Assembly: GCA_947306055.1 (NCBI GenBank)
Contig: CAMZFK010000002.1
Coordinates: 1 to 56,835 of the forward strand
Origin: an uncultured Candidatus Saccharibacteria bacterium
GTDB lineage: Bacteria; Patescibacteriota; Saccharimonadia; Saccharimonadales; Saccharimonadaceae
DNA length: 56,835 nt
Direction: 5' to 3'
A program made the position numbers and the translations under genes. Shown piece by piece: positions 3,266 through 55,277 of the stretch (position 1 is the first letter of the stretch; each line of letters starts with the position of its first letter). Below the pieces are notes generated by a model. The model had not been told where the DNA came from, searched no databases, and was given only the letters and a program-made list of their open reading frames with translations.

Positions 3266-3823
3266 ATGTACGGACCAACAGATCTAAAGAAAAATACTCT
3301 AATTACTTTAGACGGCCAGCCGTATAAAGTGGTGGAGTACTCACAAAAAGTTATGGGCCGCGGTGGTTCCATTGTAAACGTAAAGGTCAAAAACCTTGTC
3401 ACGGGCGCTCTGCTCCCAAAGACCTTTAAAGGCCAAGAAAAAATTGAACCGGCCGAGGTCACTACTCGCAAAGTTCAATATCTCTACAAGGATGATGAAA
3501 AGTTTTATTTCATGGATCCAGAGACTTTCGAGCAATACGAACTTATGGGCGACATGGTCGGCGACATGAAAGATTTTATGAAAGATGGTGACGAAATGGA
3601 AATCCAATTCTATAATGGCACTCCAATCAATCTCCAGCTTCCAAAGAATCTCTGGCTTGCAGTTACCTACACCGAGAGCGTAGTTAAAGGTGACACTACT
3701 ACTTCTGTAATGAAAGATGCTACTTTGGAAACCGGCGTAGTGGTCAAAGTCCCAGCATTCATTAAGGAAGGCGACATCGTCTCAGTCGACACCGAAACCT
3801 ACGAATATCGTGGAAGGAAATAA
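3266..3823 (+). CDS. efp: Translation elongation factor P
   Basis: KKNTLITLDGQPYKVVEYSQKVMGRGGSIVNVKVKNL; EF-P domain order. Confidence 0.95.
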   Translation: MYGPTDLKKNTLITLDGQPYKVVEYSQKVMGRGGSIVNVKVKNLVTGALLPKTFKGQEKIEPAEVTTRKVQYLYKDDEKFYFMDPETFEQYELMGDMVGDMKDFMKDGDEMEIQFYNGTPINLQLPKNLWLAVTYTESVVKGDTTTSVMKDATLETGVVVKVPAFIKEGDIVSVDTETYEYRGRK

Positions 3824-4560
3824 TGGCAGCACGGACGGGTGACGGAGCTTGGGGGACCCCCACGGAGCCTTGCGACGTGGGGGAAAATGCGACGGCAGGA
3901 CCCGTCCGGGGCTATATTAAACTCTCTAATGCTGTCCGCGCCTTCAATTTCGATTTCCGTGGCAAGACCGTGCTCGATATCGGTTCTTCGACTGGCGGTT
4001 TCACCGAGCTCGCCCTAAAAAACGGCGCGAAAAAAGTCATCGCAGTAGAGAAAGGCTCTCACCAAATGAAGGCCCCTCTCCGCTTCGATCCCCGCATCGA
4101 ACTCCACGAAAAAACCGACATCTTCGACGTAGAAGCGCGGACAAAAGTAAAGCCCTCTGAGGGGCATCCGCAGTTGCTACGAGGACGAAGTGACGAGCCC
4201 CGTGAAGACGGGCGCGAGGAACGTCCCGAAGAGGGCATTACTTTTGTCCTTACTCCTGACGCTATAGTCGCAGACGTTTCTTTTTTGAGTTTGACGAAAA
4301 TATTGAAGTACGCCAAGGGGCATTTATCTGGCAAAAACACAGATTTTCTCGTGATGCTAAAGCCCCAGTTTGAAGCTCGCGAAGACCAGCTACATAAAGG
4401 TGTCGTCAAAAACGAAAAAATCCGCCGCGAAATTATCAAAAACTTTGAACAATGGCTCAAGCAAAACGGCTTCGTTATTATTAAAAAACGCGATAATGAC
4501 CTCGCTGGCCGCCACGGAAATTTGGAACGTTTTTACTGGTTGAAGCAAGCAGGGAAGTAG
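3823..4560 (+). CDS. TlyA-family / FtsJ-type rRNA methyltransferase carrying two palindromic insertions
   Basis: GYIKLSNAV...GKTVLDIGSSTGGFTELALKNGAKKVIAVEKG and VADVSFLSLTKIL motifs; no N-terminal S4 domain. Confidence 0.85.
   Translation: MAARTGDGAWGTPTEPCDVGENATAGPVRGYIKLSNAVRAFNFDFRGKTVLDIGSSTGGFTELALKNGAKKVIAVEKGSHQMKAPLRFDPRIELHEKTDIFDVEARTKVKPSEGHPQLLRGRSDEPREDGREERPEEGITFVLTPDAIVADVSFLSLTKILKYAKGHLSGKNTDFLVMLKPQFEAREDQLHKGVVKNEKIRREIIKNFEQWLKQNGFVIIKKRDNDLAGRHGNLERFYWLKQAGK
3832..3908 (+). repeat. Intragenic palindromic element 1 (family 1)
   Basis: CGGACGGGT 3832-3840 / ACCCGTCCG 3900-3908; inner CCCCCAC 3857-3863 / GTGGGGG 3877-3883; core shared with 18868-18941. Confidence 0.8.
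4139..4249 (+). repeat. Intragenic palindromic element 2 (family 2-like)
   Basis: GGACAAAAGTAAAGCCCTCT 4139-4158 pairs 19/20 with AGAGGGCATTACTTTTGTCC 4230-4249; core resembles the gyrA element. Confidence 0.8.
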
Positions 4561-18072: not shown

Positions 18073-20007
18073 ATGGATGAAATCAAGCAAAAATTAAAAC
18101 TCATTATAAAAAATTTATACAATCTTGATTTTGAACCCGAGCTCACCCCATCTCCAGACAATATCGACGCAGATTACTCCACCAACGCCCCATTAAAACT
18201 CGCGAAAGACCTTCATAAATCTCCAATGCAAATTGCTGAGGAGTTAGAGACTGGGTTTGGAACTTTTGAGACCGTGTCCCGCGAGGGTCACGACCCGAGC
18301 GAAGTGATGGCAGAAGTTGCCAAAGGGGGATTGCGCAGCGCGGCAGCGCGAGCCATAGCAGCGCCCGCCCGTGGCGACTGGCCGGGCGACTGCGACCCCG
18401 TGGTAACTACTGCCATCACTCCCCCAGGATTTTTGAATTTTAGATTAGATGACGCATGTCTTAACGAGAGTCTTAATGGCTTGTATGGTGATTTCGACGG
18501 CGAAATTAAATCGAACGAACTTAGCGGCAAAACCGTAATTTGCGAATTTAGCGACCCGAATCCATTTAAAGTCCTCCATGTCGGCCATCTCTATACCAGC
18601 ATTGTTGGCGATTCCATTTCGAGACTTTACGAATACGCCGGCGCTAACGTCATCCGTGCCAATTTCGGTGGCGATGTTGGCCTCCACGTGGCAAAAACCA
18701 GCTACGCTTTGCTCAAAAATAACTTCACTCCTGACACCCTTACCATAGAAGATATCTCGAAATGCTATGTCGAAGGTACTGCCGCTTACGAAGAAGACGA
18801 GCAAGCCCACGCCGAGATCACTAGACTCAACAAAGAGATTTATAAAGTCAACGCCGAAGGTATTCATGGGCGGGTGACAGACTCGCAGGGGGACCCCCGC
18901 GAGAGCCTCGTGGGGGATAGCGAGTCTGGCAGGACCCGCCCAGAGGATAGACTCGCCGATCTTTATTGGAAAGGTCGCGAATTAAGCTATGATTATTTCA
19001 AAGCCTTCTACGCCAATATCGGCCTCACCTTTGACAAATACTATCCAGAATCCACCGTCGCCGCCCTCGGTCTTGAGACTGTCAAAAAAGAGCTCGCAGC
19101 CGGAGTCTATGAAGAGTCCGACGGCGCCGTTATCTTTGATGGCGACAAATTTGGTCTCCACACCCGCGTCTTTATCAATAAAGAGGGTGTCCCGACTTAC
19201 GAAGCAAAGGACGTCGGTCTGATTTTTACCAAAAACAACGATTATCATTTTGACAAATCCGTCGTCATCACTGGCAACGAGCAGCTTGAATACATGAAAG
19301 TCGTTCTAAAATCGGTCGAACAATACGCCCCAGACTTAGTCGCAAAAACCACACACTTGACTCACGGCCTCGTCAAGCTTCCAGGCAACGTTAAAATGTC
19401 ATCAAGGAAGGGCAACTTCTTAAAAGCTGTCGAGGTTCTCGACCTCGTGAAAGATGAATTAAAGTCCGAATATGGCTCCGAAGACGAAAAAGTCTCCCTT
19501 GCCGCCACCAAGTACGCCTTTTTGAAATACAAAATGGGCGGCAACATCATTTTCGATCCAAAAGAATCCGTCAAGATGACCGGCAACTCCGGCCCATACC
19601 TCCTCTACTCCTGCGTCCGCGCCAAGAAGATTCTCGAGAAGGTCGATAAAGAAGCTCGCGACGGGGTTCTTTTGCGACCCTTTGCGACTGACGAGGAGCA
19701 ACGGAGCGAAGTTTCGCCTGTGACGACGGGCCGAGACGAGCGCGTCGCGAAAGAATCCTCGCGCGAGCTTCTTAAAAAACTTTTAGAATATCGTAGCACG
19801 CTTACGGATGCCGTTGCCGAAATGGCCCCACACAAAGTCGCAAATTACCTATACGAGCTCGCCCAGGACTTTTCAAGATTTTACGAAAACTGTCAGGTCG
19901 CCGGCTCAGATGAAGAAGAAGAGCGCCTAAAAATTGTCAAAGTTTACCTAGACACTATGACCCACGGTCTAAACATTTTAGGTATTGAAATCCCGGAGGA
20001 AATGTAG
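18073..20007 (+). CDS. argS: Arginyl-tRNA synthetase carrying three palindromic insertions
   Basis: EFSDPNPFKVLHVGHLYTSIVGDSISRLYEYAGANVIRANFGGDVG; PGNVKMSSRKGNF; ANYLYELAQDFSRFY. Confidence 0.95.
   Translation: MDEIKQKLKLIIKNLYNLDFEPELTPSPDNIDADYSTNAPLKLAKDLHKSPMQIAEELETGFGTFETVSREGHDPSEVMAEVAKGGLRSAAARAIAAPARGDWPGDCDPVVTTAITPPGFLNFRLDDACLNESLNGLYGDFDGEIKSNELSGKTVICEFSDPNPFKVLHVGHLYTSIVGDSISRLYEYAGANVIRANFGGDVGLHVAKTSYALLKNNFTPDTLTIEDISKCYVEGTAAYEEDEQAHAEITRLNKEIYKVNAEGIHGRVTDSQGDPRESLVGDSESGRTRPEDRLADLYWKGRELSYDYFKAFYANIGLTFDKYYPESTVAALGLETVKKELAAGVYEESDGAVIFDGDKFGLHTRVFINKEGVPTYEAKDVGLIFTKNNDYHFDKSVVITGNEQLEYMKVVLKSVEQYAPDLVAKTTHLTHGLVKLPGNVKMSSRKGNFLKAVEVLDLVKDELKSEYGSEDEKVSLAATKYAFLKYKMGGNIIFDPKESVKMTGNSGPYLLYSCVRAKKILEKVDKEARDGVLLRPFATDEEQRSEVSPVTTGRDERVAKESSRELLKKLLEYRSTLTDAVAEMAPHKVANYLYELAQDFSRFYENCQVAGSDEEEERLKIVKVYLDTMTHGLNILGIEIPEEM
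18303..18420 (+). repeat. Intragenic palindromic element 3
   Basis: AGTGATGGCAGAAGTTGCC 18303-18321 pairs 17/19 with GGTAACTACTGCCATCACT 18402-18420; GC-rich core. Confidence 0.75.
18868..18941 (+). repeat. Intragenic palindromic element 4 (family 1)
   Basis: GGGCGGGT 18868-18875 / ACCCGCCC 18934-18941; CAGACTCGC 18878-18886 / GCGAGTCTG 18920-18928; core matches element 1. Confidence 0.85.
19653..19769 (+). repeat. Intragenic palindromic element 5 (family 2)
   Basis: TTCTTTTGCGAC 19667-19678 / GTCGCGAAAGAA 19744-19755; AGCTCGC 19653-19659 / GCGAGCT 19763-19769; core homologous to the gyrA element. Confidence 0.82.
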
Positions 20008-26691: not shown

Positions 26692-26775
26692 GCGTTTTTG
26701 TTGCAATTTTTATAATACTTGTGCTATAATTATAGACAGTTAATCAGAGGTTTTATTGAGAGGACAAGAGAGGTA

Positions 26776-29700
26776 ATGATATCCACAAAAATCAAACACC
26801 AAATTAGCAGTATTAAATGGATGCGAAATGCAGCCTACTTTTCCATCCTAACTCTAGCCCTGCTTCTATCCTTTACCATTAATCCAGTAGGTAAAGAAAC
26901 CAGCGTAGAAGCCATTACTGGTACTGCTAATGCGGCTACAACCTCTCTAACCCTTAGCAGTACCAGTAATGAAGCCAAACTCACTATCTCTCCAACTAAT
27001 AGCAATGGCACCTTCACTTCCTCCACAGGCAGTGATATAGCCTCCTTCATGATTACCACAAACAACTACACAGGCTATACCCTAGGTATCACAGCTAGTG
27101 ATAATACTGGTAATCTAGTAAACACTAATACTAATGATACTATAGCTAGTATTACAGCAAATCTCACAGAATCATCCTTCAATACATCCACCAACAACAA
27201 CAAATGGGGCTACAAACCAAGCAGATATGTAGACACCACCAACAACACTACCACTACAATAGACAACACAGGCAATAACTCAGTCTTCCTCCCATCCCCT
27301 ACCACCTTCCCAACTCTCCTAGGTATCACAAGTACAGCTAATAGCATAGACAATAATAGCAGTAATGCAGATAACTATACTATAGCTCTAGGCCTAAGAG
27401 CAGACTATCACCTAGCTCCAGGCACCTACACCAAGACCTTCACCCTAACAGCCCTAGCTAATGATGCACCATATACTATCTACTACAACAAGAACACTAG
27501 TGATACTGTAACCAACATGCCTACCACCTCCACCAGTGGCTCTATCTCAGACACATCCATCACTCTAGCAAACAACATCCCCCAAAGAGCCCACTATACC
27601 TTCATAGGCTGGTGTAATAAAGAAACTACTACCACAAACGGTATAGATTCCTGTACAGGTACTAACCCAACCACCGGAGCAGCAGCTACAGTCTACAATC
27701 CAAACGGCAATAACACCAACCTCACCTACTACCTAGACCAAACCACAGAAAACATCACTACACTCTATGCTATGTGGAAGATTGATATGTTCACCATCAA
27801 TATCACTACCACCAATGGTGCAAGCAGTATCTCCATAGACAGCACTAACTACAACAATGGCACTACTGCCTCCCTAGCTTATGGTTCCACCCATACCATT
27901 ACTGGTAATTACGCCTCAGGCTACGAGTTTGACAGCTGGTCTACATCTGGCAATATCTCACTAACAAGCACTTCTTCATCCACCACCACCATGACCGTTA
28001 CTGGTGCGGGGACACTAACGCTAAATGGAAAGCAGAGCTGTGTGACGATCAGCGGATACCTTCAAGATTTTACTGGGACAGCGGACTACTGTAGCACTAC
28101 TGGCACTCTCACAGACAGCAGAGACGGGACTAGCTATACTGTGGGTAAATTAGCGGATAATAAGTGGTGGCTGTTAGATAACTTAGCCCTAGACATTACC
28201 ACCTCCACAGTGAAGAATAATCTCTCTGAGACCAATACTAACGCCTCAAATACTACGCTAAACTATCTCAAGAATGGTGGTGGCACCACTTCGGACCAAT
28301 ATGCCATGATTGGAGTTACCACTACTTGGGATGATAGTCAGTATAAGTATTCTGGTCCAAAAATCGCCACTAGTGGCACATGCTATGACACTAACTGCGT
28401 AAACGACCCAGAGTCTGGTCAATGGGCCAAAGACAGTCTAATAAGTTATGGGGACGGCTCTAATAGGATAGGCATTTACTACAATTTTTGTGCAGCCTCT
28501 GCAGGCTCATACTGCTATGGCAACGCTACCACTGGCTACGGCACGCCTTCTGGTAATGCCACCGAAGACATCTGCCCAGCAGGCTGGCGTTTACCTATAG
28601 GCGGGACGGCGAATAATGAATACGGAGCTCTATATACTGCCTATTCTAACAACGTTACGGATTCTATAAACGCGCTTCATGTCGCTCCCTCTGGTCAGTT
28701 TATCCCAAATTCAGCTAGGACGCAGGGGGGTAGAGGCCTCTTTTGGGCATCCACTAATATTGGCGATATGGCCATGTATGGTCTACTCATGCTTAATCGT
28801 AACGACCTTAGCGTGAGCGCTGTCCTAGACCGTAACTACGGTTATTCGGTTCGTTGCGTCTTGGATCGAGTAGACTACACATTCGCTTATAATAAAAATA
28901 CAAATGACGTCGTCTCAAATGTGCCAACTATCCAAACTGGTAGCACTCTCTCTGTGAACGGGATTACCATTCCAAATGATACTCCTGCCCGCTCTGGTTA
29001 TGCTTTTCTTGGTTGGTGCACCACCCAGCCAACTACGAATAGTGGCATAGATTCCTGCTCCGGTGCTACTTACTATCCAAGCACTCGGTATATAGAATAT
29101 GGCCGAACAGGACTAGTCTCTGGTACTTTTTATGCCATGTGGAGAGCACTCTCTTCAATGTCGACTATACAGAATATTGCTAGGGCCTCTTGTTCAGCTA
29201 GCCCAACTGAAGTTTACGATGTCCGTGATAATAATATCTACGCCATTCAAAAGCTCGCCGACGGTAAATGCTGGCTTCTAGACAATCTCCGTCTAGACCT
29301 CACAAACTCTACGGTAAAAGCCAATCTCTCTGTCACTAATACTAATGCTTCGAATACGACTCTAAATTACCTCAAAAATGGTGGTGGTACTACTTCAGAC
29401 CAATATGCTATCACTGGCGTAGTTGGATGGACAAGTAGTCCTAACTATGCTAGCTCATATAGCTTTTCAGATCCACTAATTGCTATCAGTGGTACTAATA
29501 AAACTAGTAATAATATTAGTAACTGGACTAAAGATACCACGGCGTCTTTCGCTATGGGCCAATCTGGAACGGGTAAAATAGGTGTATACTATAACTTCTG
29601 TGCTGCTTCTGCAGGTAGCTACTGCTATGGCGATGGTACAAGTTCTAATCCAATCTCCATCAATGTTACCGAAGATATCTGCCCAGCAAATTGGCGTATG

Positions 29701-31068
29701 CCTACAGGTGGTAGTAATGGAGAATACAGAGCTCTCTATACTGCCTATTCTAGCGACGGAGCAGCCTTCGTCAACATTCTCCACACCCCTCTCTCTGGCT
29801 ACTTCTACAGTAATGGCTCAGCCTACACTCAAGGTCTCCACGGCTACTTTTGGTCAGCATCTTTCTATAGTAATGGTGGCGGCGGTAGAGCCAGGTATTT
29901 GTTACAAGTTACTTCGTCAGGCGTAGACACGACATATTATACTCCTGCAAGTTATGGCTATTCAGTTCGCTGCGTTTTTGACCCACCCACACAGTACACC
30001 ATTACTTATAATAAAAATACTAGTGACACTGTTTCGAATATGCCAGCCAAACAAACTGGCAATGCCAGATCCATTGATTCAATCGTCCTTTCGGACAGTG
30101 TCCCTACTCGCTCTGGTTATGCTTTTCTTGGTTGGTGCACCACCCAGCCAACTACGAATAATGGCATAGATTTTTGCTCTAGCATCTCATATAATCCGAG
30201 AGACCAATATAATATAAACTCCGGCCAAGCAGAATCAGTTTCTATTATCCTCTATGCTATGTGGCAATCGTATTCTTTAGCACCAATAATGCAAAACGTC
30301 ACAGCTAGTACTTGCTACACATTCCCAATATTTGCTAGGGATTCCCGCGACAATGAACTTTATTCTATTCAAAAACTTGCCGACGGTAAATGTTGGCTAC
30401 TAGATAATCTCCGCTTGGATCTCACAAACTCTACAGTAAAAGCCAATCTTTCCGCTACTAATACTAATGCTTCAAACACGACTTTAAATTATCTTAAAAA
30501 TGGCGGGGGCGCTAATTCGGACCAATATGCTATGACTGGGGCTACTGCTACTTGGAACAATAGCCGGTATAGGTATTCTGGCCCTAAAATCGCTGCTAGT
30601 GGCACTGGCAATAATGGTGATTGGACTAAAGACACCGAGGTTCCTCTCGCTATGGGTCAGTCTGGCTCTGGTAAAATAGGCATATATTATAACTATTGCG
30701 CTGCTTCTGCAGGCTCATACTGCTATGGCAACGCTACCACTGGCTCCGGCACGCCTTCTGGTAATGCCACCGAAGACATCTGCCCAGCAGGCTGGCGTAT
30801 ACCTACAGGTGGTAGTAATGGAGAATACCAAGCTCTCTATACTGCCTATTCTAGCGATAGAGCAGCATTTGTTAATGCTCTCCGCACTCCTATTTCGGGG
30901 TATTTCTATAGTGGCGCTAGTAGTCAAAGCTCAATTGGCTACTTTTGGTCGTCTACATACAGCAGCTCTTCCGGCATGTATGATTTGTATGTGGCTACGT
31001 CTGGTTTTAGCGCGCAGTATAGCAGCAGTCGCTATAATGGCTACTCCATCCGCTGCATCCTCAAATAG
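26776..31068 (+). CDS. Large repetitive surface protein: Listeria-Bacteroides (InlB B-type) repeats alternating with three FISUMP-like domains
   Basis: Signal peptide; YTIYYNKNTSDTVTNMP...AHYTFIGWC repeats; three CWLLDNLxLD...ATEDICPAGWRLPTGG...GYSVRCV modules; likely ATG at 26776. Confidence 0.85.
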   Translation: MISTKIKHQISSIKWMRNAAYFSILTLALLLSFTINPVGKETSVEAITGTANAATTSLTLSSTSNEAKLTISPTNSNGTFTSSTGSDIASFMITTNNYTGYTLGITASDNTGNLVNTNTNDTIASITANLTESSFNTSTNNNKWGYKPSRYVDTTNNTTTTIDNTGNNSVFLPSPTTFPTLLGITSTANSIDNNSSNADNYTIALGLRADYHLAPGTYTKTFTLTALANDAPYTIYYNKNTSDTVTNMPTTSTSGSISDTSITLANNIPQRAHYTFIGWCNKETTTTNGIDSCTGTNPTTGAAATVYNPNGNNTNLTYYLDQTTENITTLYAMWKIDMFTINITTTNGASSISIDSTNYNNGTTASLAYGSTHTITGNYASGYEFDSWSTSGNISLTSTSSSTTTMTVTGAGTLTLNGKQSCVTISGYLQDFTGTADYCSTTGTLTDSRDGTSYTVGKLADNKWWLLDNLALDITTSTVKNNLSETNTNASNTTLNYLKNGGGTTSDQYAMIGVTTTWDDSQYKYSGPKIATSGTCYDTNCVNDPESGQWAKDSLISYGDGSNRIGIYYNFCAASAGSYCYGNATTGYGTPSGNATEDICPAGWRLPIGGTANNEYGALYTAYSNNVTDSINALHVAPSGQFIPNSARTQGGRGLFWASTNIGDMAMYGLLMLNRNDLSVSAVLDRNYGYSVRCVLDRVDYTFAYNKNTNDVVSNVPTIQTGSTLSVNGITIPNDTPARSGYAFLGWCTTQPTTNSGIDSCSGATYYPSTRYIEYGRTGLVSGTFYAMWRALSSMSTIQNIARASCSASPTEVYDVRDNNIYAIQKLADGKCWLLDNLRLDLTNSTVKANLSVTNTNASNTTLNYLKNGGGTTSDQYAITGVVGWTSSPNYASSYSFSDPLIAISGTNKTSNNISNWTKDTTASFAMGQSGTGKIGVYYNFCAASAGSYCYGDGTSSNPISINVTEDICPANWRMPTGGSNGEYRALYTAYSSDGAAFVNILHTPLSGYFYSNGSAYTQGLHGYFWSASFYSNGGGGRARYLLQVTSSGVDTTYYTPASYGYSVRCVFDPPTQYTITYNKNTSDTVSNMPAKQTGNARSIDSIVLSDSVPTRSGYAFLGWCTTQPTTNNGIDFCSSISYNPRDQYNINSGQAESVSIILYAMWQSYSLAPIMQNVTASTCYTFPIFARDSRDNELYSIQKLADGKCWLLDNLRLDLTNSTVKANLSATNTNASNTTLNYLKNGGGANSDQYAMTGATATWNNSRYRYSGPKIAASGTGNNGDWTKDTEVPLAMGQSGSGKIGIYYNYCAASAGSYCYGNATTGSGTPSGNATEDICPAGWRIPTGGSNGEYQALYTAYSSDRAAFVNALRTPISGYFYSGASSQSSIGYFWSSTYSSSSGMYDLYVATSGFSAQYSSSRYNGYSIRCILK

Positions 31069-37055: not shown

Positions 37056-38813
37056 ATGAACTCTCAAGAAAACGAGAATCTAGACAAAATGAGACATACT
37101 TTAAGTCATGTACTCGCTGCTGCAGTACAGGAGCTTTATCCTACAACAAAATTTGGGATTGGTCCTTCTATCGACAACGGTTTTTACTATGATATGGATT
37201 TTGGTGACACCAAGATCAGCGACGCAGATTTAGCTAAAATCGAAAAGAAAATGCGCGGCATTATAGCAAGAAAACTTGATATGACTAAACGCATTACCAC
37301 GAAGACTGAAGCTTTGAATTGGGCACGTGATAATAAACAAGATTACAAAATCGAGTTAATCAACGAACTTCCTGAGGATGCCGAGATTTCATTCTACGAT
37401 ATGGGTGACGTCTTTACAGACCTTTGCAAAGGCCCACACGTAGATAATACCAAAGAAGTCGGAGCGTTTAAACTTATTCGTGTAGCCGGCGCATATTGGC
37501 GCGGTGACGAAAAAAGGGAAATGCTTACGCGCATTTACGGCGTAGCTTTTGCTACCGAAGAGGAATTAGATGAATATTTGAAGCGGCAAGAAGAGGCTAA
37601 GGCTCGTGATCACCGCAAGCTTGGCAAGGAGCTAGATCTATTCTGCTTCTCAGATTTGGTCGGCGCTGGCCTTCCGCTCTTTACCCCGCGTGGTACTGAG
37701 CTCCGTGAACTCATGGCTAATTATTCGTTGTCGCTTCGTGGTCGCGAGGGCTTTAAGAAAGTTTGGACCCCACATATCACCAAGACTGACCTCTATAAGA
37801 CTTCTGGGCACTATGCCAAGTTCGGCGATGAGCTCTTTATGGTTCATTCTCAGGTTAACGGCGAAGATTTCGCTATGAAGCCAATGAACTGCCCACATCA
37901 CGCCCAGATTTTCGCTTCACGTCCGCGTACTTATCGCGAAATGCCAGTTCGCTACATGGAGGCTACGACCGATTATCGCGACGAAAAGACTGGCGAGCTC
38001 GGCGGGCTCTCTCGCGTGCGCTCTTTGACCCAGGATGATTCACACGTCTTTTGTCGCAAAGAGCAGATAAAAGATGAAGTGAAGCGCTTAGTCGCCATTG
38101 TAAAAGAACTCTACACCACGGTCGGCATGCAGAAACTACGTGCTAGACTTAGCTATCGTTCCGACGAAGATAAGTATCTCGGTGACAAAAAGCTTTGGGA
38201 GATGGCGCAGAATCAGATTAAGCAAGCTGCTATCGATAACGGCCTAGATTATTTCGAGCAAGAGGGTGAAGCTGCTTTCTACGGACCAAAGATTGATTTC
38301 ATGGCCGAAGATGCTATTGGTCGCGAGCACCAACTCGCCACCATCCAGCTCGATTTTGTTCAGCCAGAACGCTTTGGCCTCGAGTTCATTAATGAAAAAG
38401 GCGAAAAAGAACGCCCAGTGATGATTCACCACGCTACGCTTGGTTCGATTGAGCGCTTCCTCTCGGTATTTATTGAACACACTGGCGGCTGGTTCCCATT
38501 CTGGTGCGCGCCAGAACAAGTCCGTATTGTGACAGTGAATGACACCGTATCAGACTATGTCGGTAAAATCACCGACATTCTCAGCAAGATAGTACTAGAG
38601 AGGCCTCTCAAATACAATGAATTGCGCTATACAGTCGACGAATCTGCCGATTCACTTGGCAAAAAGATCAAACGTGCCACAGACATGAAAATCCCAGTCG
38701 TATTGGTCGTCGGGCCAAAAGATGCCGAAGAGGGAATCGTCTCCGTCCGCCTCCGCGACAAAGAAGAAAAAATCAAACTTGCCGACCTTGCCGAGTTCTT
38801 GAGAGGACGGTAG
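37056..38813 (+). CDS. thrS: Threonyl-tRNA synthetase (no N-terminal TGS domain apparent)
   Basis: MRHTLSHVLAAAVQELYPTTKFGIGPSIDNGFYYD...MKPMNCPHHAQIF...MIHHATLGSIERF. Confidence 0.95.
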   Translation: MNSQENENLDKMRHTLSHVLAAAVQELYPTTKFGIGPSIDNGFYYDMDFGDTKISDADLAKIEKKMRGIIARKLDMTKRITTKTEALNWARDNKQDYKIELINELPEDAEISFYDMGDVFTDLCKGPHVDNTKEVGAFKLIRVAGAYWRGDEKREMLTRIYGVAFATEEELDEYLKRQEEAKARDHRKLGKELDLFCFSDLVGAGLPLFTPRGTELRELMANYSLSLRGREGFKKVWTPHITKTDLYKTSGHYAKFGDELFMVHSQVNGEDFAMKPMNCPHHAQIFASRPRTYREMPVRYMEATTDYRDEKTGELGGLSRVRSLTQDDSHVFCRKEQIKDEVKRLVAIVKELYTTVGMQKLRARLSYRSDEDKYLGDKKLWEMAQNQIKQAAIDNGLDYFEQEGEAAFYGPKIDFMAEDAIGREHQLATIQLDFVQPERFGLEFINEKGEKERPVMIHHATLGSIERFLSVFIEHTGGWFPFWCAPEQVRIVTVNDTVSDYVGKITDILSKIVLERPLKYNELRYTVDESADSLGKKIKRATDMKIPVVLVVGPKDAEEGIVSVRLRDKEEKIKLADLAEFLRGR

Positions 38814-38964
38814 GGGTAGTTTTGTGAGCTTGGAGCAAGCCCAAGGGCAAAAAACTAGTTTCACAGGTCGAGTACGGAACTGTAATTCCGGCGCAGACCT
38901 GACTGAAACTAGTTTTTTGGACCTGGCGCGAAGCGATTTGCAAGCAAACACTACCCCTACCGTC
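38806..38964 (+). repeat. Palindromic element 6 spanning the thrS stop and miaA N-terminus
   Basis: GACGGTAGGGGTAGT 38806-38820 / ACTACCCCTACCGTC 38950-38964 (15/15); CAAAAAACTAGTTTCA 38848-38863 / TGAAACTAGTTTTTTG 38904-38919 (16/16). Confidence 0.85.
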
Positions 38965-52616: not shown

Positions 52617-55277
52617 ATGGCAGATAAGAATGACAACTTGAAAGGAGCGGAAGGAATGTCCTCTGAGGAACCTTTCGCGACGACGGGAGCGAACGGAGCG
52701 AGCGAAGCCCGTAACGACGGGCCTGAGCGAAGCGTTTCCGAAGAGGGTATTGCTTCCGCTTCTGTAGAGAAGGGTATTGAGCTTCGTACTGTTGAGAACA
52801 CCATGGAAGACTACTTCCTACGTTACTCTCTTTCCGTTATTGTCGACCGCGCTCTCCCAGACGTCCGTGATGGTTTGAAGCCAGTCAACCGCCGTATATT
52901 ATATGCGATGAACAAAAATGGCTGGAAGGCTCCACATGCTACGGTCAAGTCCGCTCGTATTGTCGGTGAAGTCATGGGTAAATATCACCCGCACGGCGAT
53001 TCGTCCATTTATGATGCAATGGTCAACCTCGCTCAGCCATGGAAAATGCGCTACACCCTCGTAGAAGGTCAAGGTAACTTTGGTTCTATGGACGGTGATG
53101 AGCCAGCAGCTTCCCGTTACACCGAGGCTCGCCTTGATAAAGTTGGAGCCGAGCTTCTTGCTGATATCGAGAAAGAAACCGTAGATTTTCGTGACAACTT
53201 CGATGGCACCGAGAAAGAGCCGTCAGTTCTCCCATCCGCTGTACCGAACATTCTCTTAAATGGTCAGATGGGTATCGCCGTCGGTATGGCGACTAATATT
53301 CCGCCACACAATCTTGGCGAGCTCGTAGACGCCACCGTCGCCCAGATTGACAACCCAGACATCACCCTCGAAGAATTGATGAAATATGTCAAAGGCCCAG
53401 ATTTCCCAACTGGTGCCGAGGTCTATGGTGGCACCCCTATGAAAGAGGCCTACGCCACCGGTAAAGGCTCTGTCACGATCCGCGCTGTTGCTAATATCGA
53501 AGAGCGCAAAAACGGCCGCTATAACATCGTGATTACAGAGGTCCCTTACGGCATGAGCAAGGAAGACTTCATCGAGAAGGTTCGCGACCTCGTTCTCGCG
53601 AAAAAACTCGATCATATCGCCGACGCTCGTGATGAATCTGCCCGTGGCAAGGTTCGTGTCGTAGTAGAGTTAAAGAAAGATGCGTTCCCAAAGAAGATCT
53701 TGAACCAGCTTTACAAGCTTACTCCGCTCCAGACTTCTTTCCATTATAATATGCTCGCTCTTATTGACGGTATCCAGCCTCGTATCCTCGGGCTTAAGGA
53801 AATTTTGGCAGAGTTCATCAAGCACCGCCAGAAGGTCATCCGCCGCCGCACCGAGTTTGATCTTAAAAAGGCCAAAGAGCGCGCGCATATCTTAGAAGGT
53901 TTGAAGATCGCTCTCGATAATATCGATGAAGTCATTAAGACTATTCGTGCTGCTTATGATGACGCCGATAAACAACTCATGAAGAAATTCGGCCTCTCTG
54001 AGATCCAGGCTAACGCCATTCTTCAGATGCAACTTCGCCGTCTCCAAGGTCTCGAGCGCGACAAGATTGAAGAAGAGTTGAAGCAACTTCACGAGTTGAT
54101 CAAGCAGCTCGAAGCCATTCTTGCTGACGAAAAGGAAGTCCTCCGCGTAGTCAAGGAAGAACTCATCGCCATCAAAGAAAAATACGACGATCCTCGCCGC
54201 TCCAAGATTATTAATCATGAGGTTGGCAAGTTCTCCGAGGAAGAATTAATTCCAGAAGAAGAAAGCGTTATTCTCCTTACTACCGAAAATTACATGAAGC
54301 GTGTCCCGCAGAATGATTTTCGTCGCCAAAATCGTGGCGGTAAAGGCAAGCGCGGCATGACGACTAAAGAGGAAGATGTTATCCAGCAAATTATGACCGC
54401 AAATTCGCACGATTTCTTGCTATTCTTTACGAACCAAGGTCGTCTCTTCCGTATGAAGGCCTATGAAGTCCCGCAAGCCTCACTTTCTGCGAAGGGTACC
54501 GCTGCAGTTAATATGCTCAACATGCATCCAGAAGAGAAAATCACCGCTATTATTAAACAAGGTGATACTGGAGCAGACGGGTATCTCTTTATGGCTACCA
54601 AAAAAGGCACCATCAAGAAGTCCGCTATCAAAGATTTCTTTAATGTCCGTAGCAATGGCCTCATCGCTATCAAGCTCGACGCTGGTGACGAGCTCCGCTG
54701 GGTCAAAGAGACCACCGGTGATCATGATATCGTTATCTCTACCTCTGCCGGCCAAGCCACTCGCTTCAATGAAAAGGAAGTCCGCGTGATGGGCCGCTCT
54801 GCTATGGGTGTCCGCGGCATGCGTCTTCGCCCGAAAGATGAAATCGTCGGCATGGATGTAATTACCGATCCAGATCAGAAATTGATTGCAGTCTCGGCTA
54901 ATGGCTATGGTAAAGCCTGCCTTGTCTCCAACTTCCCACCACACAAGCGCGGCGGTGTCGGTATTAAGGTTGCCGCCGTCACAGAGAAGACCGGCCCAAT
55001 CGTAGCTGTCCATACTCTAGACCCAGAGGCCAAGGAAGTCATTATGATGTCTACCAAGGGTCAGGCCATCCGTGTAGCGATGAAAGAAATTCCAACTCTC
55101 GGTCGCGCCACTCAGGGTGTCCGCATCATGAAAATGAGCGAAGGTGACACAGTTGCCTCTATCGGTATCGTCCTTCCAGAAGAGGAATCGTCTGACGATG
55201 TCGCCGTCGCCGAGGATGTTTCGAAAGCTCCTGTCGAAGCAGAAGTTGAAACCGAGGCTCAAGAATCTGCAGAATAA
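52617..55277 (+). CDS. gyrA: DNA gyrase subunit A with palindrome-encoded N-terminal extension
   Basis: [62 protein letters not shown]. Confidence 0.97.
52646..52760 (+). repeat. Intragenic palindromic element 7 (family 2)
   Basis: AGCGGAAGGAATGTCCTCT 52646-52664 pairs with AGAGGGTATTGCTTCCGCT 52742-52760 (1 mismatch, 2 G-U); core shared with element 5. Confidence 0.85.

Follow-up and report, generated by a model that had tools for sequence, protein, structure and literature searches.

The closest described counterparts of the elements reported here were the Rickettsia palindromic elements (RPEs) and the Wolbachia palindromic elements. Like the Saccharibacteria elements, they are dispersed hairpin palindromes of about 100 to 150 bp that lie in frame within conserved protein-coding genes and also occur in intergenic regions. 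To our knowledge, how coding palindromic elements such as RPEs enter and how they stay palindromic has been an open question since their description in 2000. Two other groups of repeats were similar in part. REP/BIME sequences with RAYT (Y1) transposases are short, GC-rich, multicopy palindromes, and bacterial MITEs (Correia/NEMIS, ERIC, and RUP) are non-autonomous elements of 100 to 200 bp that form stable stem-loops. Some bacterial MITEs are fused in frame to genes, and RPEs are recorded as having their own 12-bp terminal inverted repeat (PMC2229807).

The remaining comparison was with a mutational process. Template-switch or quasipalindrome mutation (the Ripley model) homogenizes arms, inverts spacers, and makes or lengthens a stem by inverted copying of nearby sequence, and the elements described below were similar in each respect. 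In yeast coding sequences, template switching between inverted repeats was reported to cause arm homogenization and the inversion of short spacers of 2 to 5 bp (PMC8604942). In rRNA genes, it was reported to create stems, to compensate several bases at once, and to invert loops that were typically four and at most eight nucleotides (nt) long (PMC8794818). The elements described here differed from those in both reports, because one core of 29 nt and one longer core were flipped and a dispersed, repeated core lay inside the stem.

The window, meaning the whole 56,835-nt stretch of DNA that was analyzed, is contig C2 of G000, a Nanosyncoccus-like genome of 523 kb (78% complete) that belongs to the rumen/gut Saccharibacteria. 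The genomes used for comparison were MAGs, and the relatives were mostly rumen/gut Candidatus Saccharibacteria, including Ca. Nanosyncoccus alces. Besides the focal hairpin (tlyA element 2) and its gyrA counterpart, the window contained five hairpins of this kind, located at the start of tlyA, in argS (three hairpins), and between thrS and miaA. The features were as follows.

3823 to 4560, forward strand: tlyA, which codes for an FtsJ-like rRNA methyltransferase (Pfam FtsJ, 1.3e-28) and hosts two in-frame hairpins.
3832 to 3908, forward strand: tlyA element 1, family D, with the shell GGTGACGG...GGCAGGACC, directly after the start codon.
4139 to 4249, forward strand: tlyA element 2, the whole focal hairpin, flanked in frame by TDIFDV and ADVSFLSL.
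4139 to 4150, forward strand: locus-specific left outer arm of the focal hairpin, GGACAAAAGTAA, which covaries with 4238 to 4249 across six species.
4152 to 4236, forward strand: family A core with the shell GCCCTCT...AGAGGGC and the central hairpin GAGCCCCGTGAAGACGGGCGCGAG.
4238 to 4249, forward strand: locus-specific right outer arm of the focal hairpin, TTACTTTTGTCC, which is complementary to the left arm and covaries with it.
18303 to 18420, forward strand: argS element 1, with a family B core in reverse orientation; the site is empty in genome G047.
18868 to 18941, forward strand: argS element 2, family D; the site is empty in G047.
19649 to 19773, forward strand: argS element 3, with an A/B-like core and 30-nt arms; G047 is shorter here by 69 nt.
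38806 to 38964, forward strand: nested hairpin of family F at the thrS-miaA junction and the 5' end of miaA.
52646 to 52760, forward strand: N-terminal gyrA element (element 7 of the original prediction), family A, with arms at 52646 to 52657 and 52749 to 52760.

The original prediction stated that tlyA element 2 and the gyrA element share their edges, and that the sequences outside these edges differ between the two genes but are still palindromic. Our analysis confirmed this observation. The coordinates and letters of the shared edges were correct, with CCTCTGAGG forming a common left edge at 4154 to 4162 in tlyA and 52660 to 52668 in gyrA, and exact copies of CCGAAGAGGG(C/T)ATT being found only at 4226 to 4239 and 52738 to 52751. 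The central hairpin was also common to the two elements, and the edges and center of the tlyA core recurred in part in other G000 copies. By itself, the 9-nt CCTCTGAGG (one mismatch allowed) was not significant within the window; the claim is carried by both edges together with the common central hairpin. The outer arms of the tlyA element, GGACAAAAGTAA and TTACTTTTGTCC, were complementary at 12 of 12 positions and unrelated to the gyrA pair, AGCGGAAGGAAT and ATTGCTTCCGCT, in which one mismatch, a small correction to the original prediction, left 11 of 12 positions complementary. The inverted-repeat arms of the focal element as a whole were 25 nt long with 88% identity, and its RNA fold was much more stable than those of shuffled sequences (-62.5 versus -38.8 +- 4.2 kcal/mol; z of -5.7, 0 of 200 shuffles). 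In eight species (loci L116 to L123), the N terminus of gyrA carried a family A, B, or C core or nothing, indicating a reused site, and every filled site had arms of its own.

Elements of this kind were abundant in G000. An RNAfold scan of 517.5 kb identified 77 strong hairpins; about 30 had recognizable repeated cores, which we assigned to families A to F, and some of the 77 were terminator-like or tRNA regions. We used RNAfold because a strict, ungapped inverted-repeat scan misses most elements; even so, strict inverted repeats of such size numbered 46 in 1.45 Mb (the window and related loci) and 0 in 0.71 Mb of a Markov-shuffled control. Family D counts based on a regular expression were left out, as the pattern was too loose. 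Among 199 genomes sampled across the family, the C2 core occurred in 10, of which eight belong to the same genus and the remaining two share another. Family F was found in G000 at the window position listed above and at C1:76741-76900, C3:37330-37504, and C16:1357-1531. These hairpins had long, AT-rich, nested arms that differed between copies, and they lay mostly outside long genes; they resembled terminators but were much larger. At C4:4354-4528, a family C core lay inside a family D shell (GGTGAC...GGCAGGACC), so elements nest or swap centers. The C2 core (for example, C4:21015-21076) contained the hairpins ATGTGTTCTGCGGAACAT and GCGTGTCCGAAGGACACGC, and each half was itself palindromic; the halves look like products of a fold-back in which earlier arms were copied a second time. 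A literature search whose reach ended at subscription journals found no account of such elements in Saccharibacteria.

Copies of one core at different loci showed how the outer stems are distributed. In G000, der (C4:21015) and ksgA (C1:61072) carried 62-nt C2 cores with 100% identity but unrelated arms, and the core was 94 to 98% identical at two more places; the flanking sequence differed at each place and was complementary within it. Similarly, a 73-nt family B core (98.6% identical to the G047 copy) was present at two loci of genome G118 with arm pairs that were unrelated to each other, each pair being complementary. Thus, the core is a repeated unit that is nearly identical at several loci, and every locus has an outer stem of its own. 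Arm composition, judged by eye, followed the locus as well, with AT-rich arms in AT-rich places and GC-richer arms in GC-richer genes. Identical cores with complementary arms that differ by locus, together with the match in composition, indicate that the arms were made from, or at, the locus.

These findings set the elements apart from the known repeats. As with RPEs, a dispersed palindromic repeat was found in frame in protein-coding genes. Unlike in RPEs, the outer stem was locus-specific, the cores flipped, several core families occurred and nested, and the hosts were Saccharibacteria. No terminal inverted repeat was common to the copies of a family, since identical cores had unrelated outer arms, and the elements are therefore not RPEs in the strict sense. 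MITE families have constant terminal inverted repeats, whereas the outer stems here varied. REPs differ in being extragenic with constant stems, and the cognate Y1 transposase was not found in G000 (78% complete). Our transposase search covered the Y1 family (PF01797), which was detected in 2 of 80 genomes of the genus. Direct target-site duplications were not noticed by eye at the sites compared. MITE- or RPE-like transposition, in which a transposase acting in trans inserts the whole palindrome and arms come to differ with age and divergence, could account for elements that are dispersed, lie in both orientations and in frame, resemble RPEs (PMC2229807), and include some recent copies. However, divergence could not yield 100% identical cores with arms that are unrelated yet complementary, and this fact, together with the scarcity of Y1 in the genus and its absence from the G000 assembly, made transposition very improbable.

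The original prediction proposed that the outer arms are inverted copies of flanking gene sequence. It named insertion into pre-existing palindromes, templated inverted copying, and compensatory stem maintenance as possible origins, and it suggested that empty-site relatives would indicate which arm is ancestral. Among the tlyA loci that we parsed, 39 were clearly empty, with 27 to 42 nt between TDIF and ADVSF (27 to 33 nt in most); the filled sites had cores of family A, B, C, or others. On the tlyA gene tree, families A, B, and C and empty sites were intermixed, and family A alone required at least six changes. This scatter indicated that the site had been reused or that tlyA had been exchanged. 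Neither focal arm was singled out as ancestral when the arms were compared with five near empty sites (L039, L040, L044, L051, and L059) in a shuffled-arm test, or with a profile of the 39 empty sites. The same was true of most G000 sites tested, because the genome nearest to that of the window was only about 81% identical.

Where a conserved flank made the origin of an arm visible, the comparison was more informative. At mnmA site 2 in L289, L291, and L292, the left arm was the conserved host segment coding for KDVFLR and the right arm was an added inverted copy; the left arm fit the three nearest empty sites (p <= 0.02), and the right arm did not (p of 0.08 to 0.93). The reverse case, in which the right arm was the host one, was found at mnmA L295 and in ksgA (G000_7). 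At a few resolvable sites, comparison with empty relatives thus showed that one arm is ancestral host sequence and the other is its inverted copy. The proposal that the arms copy the flanking gene was partly supported: it stood at these mnmA sites and ksgA, and at tlyA and most G000 sites tested neither arm could be singled out. Insert lengths did not cleanly equal the sum of the core and a single arm, as some host bases had been replaced too.

Both arms fit the empty sites at five other mnmA site 2 elements (L283, L284, L285, L290, and L298) and looked partly host-derived. At these sites the flanking R-T and V-R codons are themselves complementary, giving a natural match of 6 nt. Such cases, like the family D shell around another family's core at C4:4430, would be expected if cores were inserted into the loops of palindromes already present in genes. 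However, the empty tlyA, mnmA, argS, der, and ksgA sites that we compared were short and had no long palindrome, and only a single arm was ancestral at L289, L291, and L292. Insertion into pre-existing palindromes was thus not general, and we considered it quite unlikely as the explanation for the elements. Templated inverted copying, which was supported where a conserved flank made arm origin visible, was the best of the three proposed origins.

Compensatory substitutions between species, the expected sign of stem maintenance, were evident in the focal arms. Across six species with family A at this site, the arms gave 22 pairs of positions, with 94.7% pairing overall, and 13 of the 22 had changed on both sides. 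Arm cells with both-sided changes outnumbered those with one-sided changes by 23 to 2. The covariation score was 0.533, compared to 0.205 +- 0.036 after shuffling; slid pairings never exceeded 0.148. Between the window and L007, for example, there were six double changes, one single change, and eleven unchanged pairs. In the strict stems of 62 coding elements, GT and AC mismatches were about equally frequent in the coding strand (33 and 35); a second count gave 58 and 56. Selection for mRNA pairing would be expected to leave more G-U than A-C. That G-U was no more common than A-C favored a DNA-level process acting in either orientation, and arm upkeep looks to be a matter of DNA rather than of selection for mRNA pairing.

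Strong covariation and very stable hairpins could also result from selection on mRNA structure, in which a useful transcript hairpin is preserved by compensating arm mutations singly. We regarded this explanation as distinctly unlikely, since one-sided cells were so few, G-U pairs were not in excess in either count, hairpins at the same site appeared and vanished between species, and an Rfam search of the elements yielded no family matches. The near absence of one-sided intermediates and the lack of wobble bias are better explained by copying than by stepwise selection. Stem maintenance was directly visible at the focal arms, and it was the stepwise, selective form of it that fit less well. 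Given that family A is scattered on the tlyA tree, some covarying pairs may trace back to independent insertions or to exchange of the gene, and not to change within one lineage. Separate insertions that each copy their own host sequence are templated copying too.

Core orientation, which we derived from the listed strands of the loci, differed between related species at two loci. Within one clade, the recX hairpin held the same place in all five genomes, but its core was forward in G047 and G153 and reversed in G118, G051, and G020. At an intergenic site close to G047_C4:19826, G118 carried the exact reverse complement (29 of 29 nt) of the core present in G047 and G153, and the arms were related and complementary, with a T-A pair changed to C-G. 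At both loci, the core had flipped between complementary arms that were kept. If the inverted arms underwent homologous recombination, cores would be flipped and arms homogenized even in the absence of template switching at replication, and the two loci are what such recombination would produce. It nevertheless seemed unlikely, because arms of about 12 to 30 bp are short for homologous recombination, arms that differ at every locus could not be recognized by a site-specific recombinase, and recombination alone does not produce an extra inverted copy of host codons. Template switching, in comparison, matched the pattern on each point tested: multi-base compensatory homogenization of arms (23 versus 2 cells), an inverted spacer flanked by retained arms (two loci), and a new arm that is the reverse complement of adjacent ancestral sequence (mnmA L289, L291, L292, and L295).

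The coding elements preserved the reading frame. The tlyA inserts were in frame at 30 of 30 loci, all mnmA site lengths were multiples of three, and the ten length differences tested between G000 and G047 orthologs were also multiples of three. Translational bypass and excised introns were ruled out, as the inserts were in frame and stop-free in practically all cases; stop-free frames in the cores showed no consistent excess over shuffles. In an AlphaFold model of TlyA, residues 1 to 24 and 110 to 134, which correspond to the two inserts, had pLDDT values below 50 amid confidently predicted parts, and both inserts probably lie in disordered segments. Frame preservation and, in TlyA, predicted disorder would explain why the inserts are tolerated. 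Some ORFs were unusual in other ways. The mnmA ORFs of G027, G080, G090, G111, G112, G144, G167, and G034 were about 750 to 840 amino acids (aa) long, compared to about 350 aa elsewhere, and are perhaps fused with the adjacent cysteine desulfurase gene. A 1,449-aa ORF at 26719 to 31068 of the window, with internal repeats about 1.1 kb apart, probably codes for a large repetitive surface protein.

Taken together, the elements belong to several families of short, dispersed palindromes with repeated cores, and we think it likely that their arms are copied and homogenized and their cores flipped by template switching during replication. In this model, replication would stall at the hairpin, and the nascent 3' end would fold back or hop to the other arm. 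Such a switch would copy one arm into the other, could extend the stem into the adjoining gene sequence, and would sometimes invert the core. If the hairpin nuclease SbcCD were missing, long palindromes would persist; cleavage at palindromes by SbcCD is established in E. coli, according to works in the reference list of PMC7999016. SbcD scored above the curated cutoff in 0 of 80 genomes of the genus and in 8 of 14 control genomes, and it is possible that SbcCD is generally absent from the lineage. Template switching accounts for the arms and the flips and does not account for core travel. A broader idea, possible but doubtful, is that these are selfish hairpins with no dedicated transposase: a fold-back event would move a core and weld it in place, each insertion would copy its target in inverted form, amounting to an inverted target-site duplication, and repeated template switching in cells lacking SbcCD would keep the palindromes perfect and flip them.

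RPE-like coding palindromes with locus-specific outer stems, which are local inverted copies at readable sites, are a real, recurrent, and unusual feature of these genomes, and the elements are apparently kept up at the DNA level. Since the origin of the arms can be read from the arms themselves at some sites, and empty, filled, and flipped sites occur across dozens of related genomes, the question of how such palindromes enter and persist becomes testable. In a lineage with no SbcD found in the 80 genomes of the genus, the elements suggest that template switching reshapes conserved genes (tlyA, mnmA, argS, gyrA, and recX) by tens of bases.
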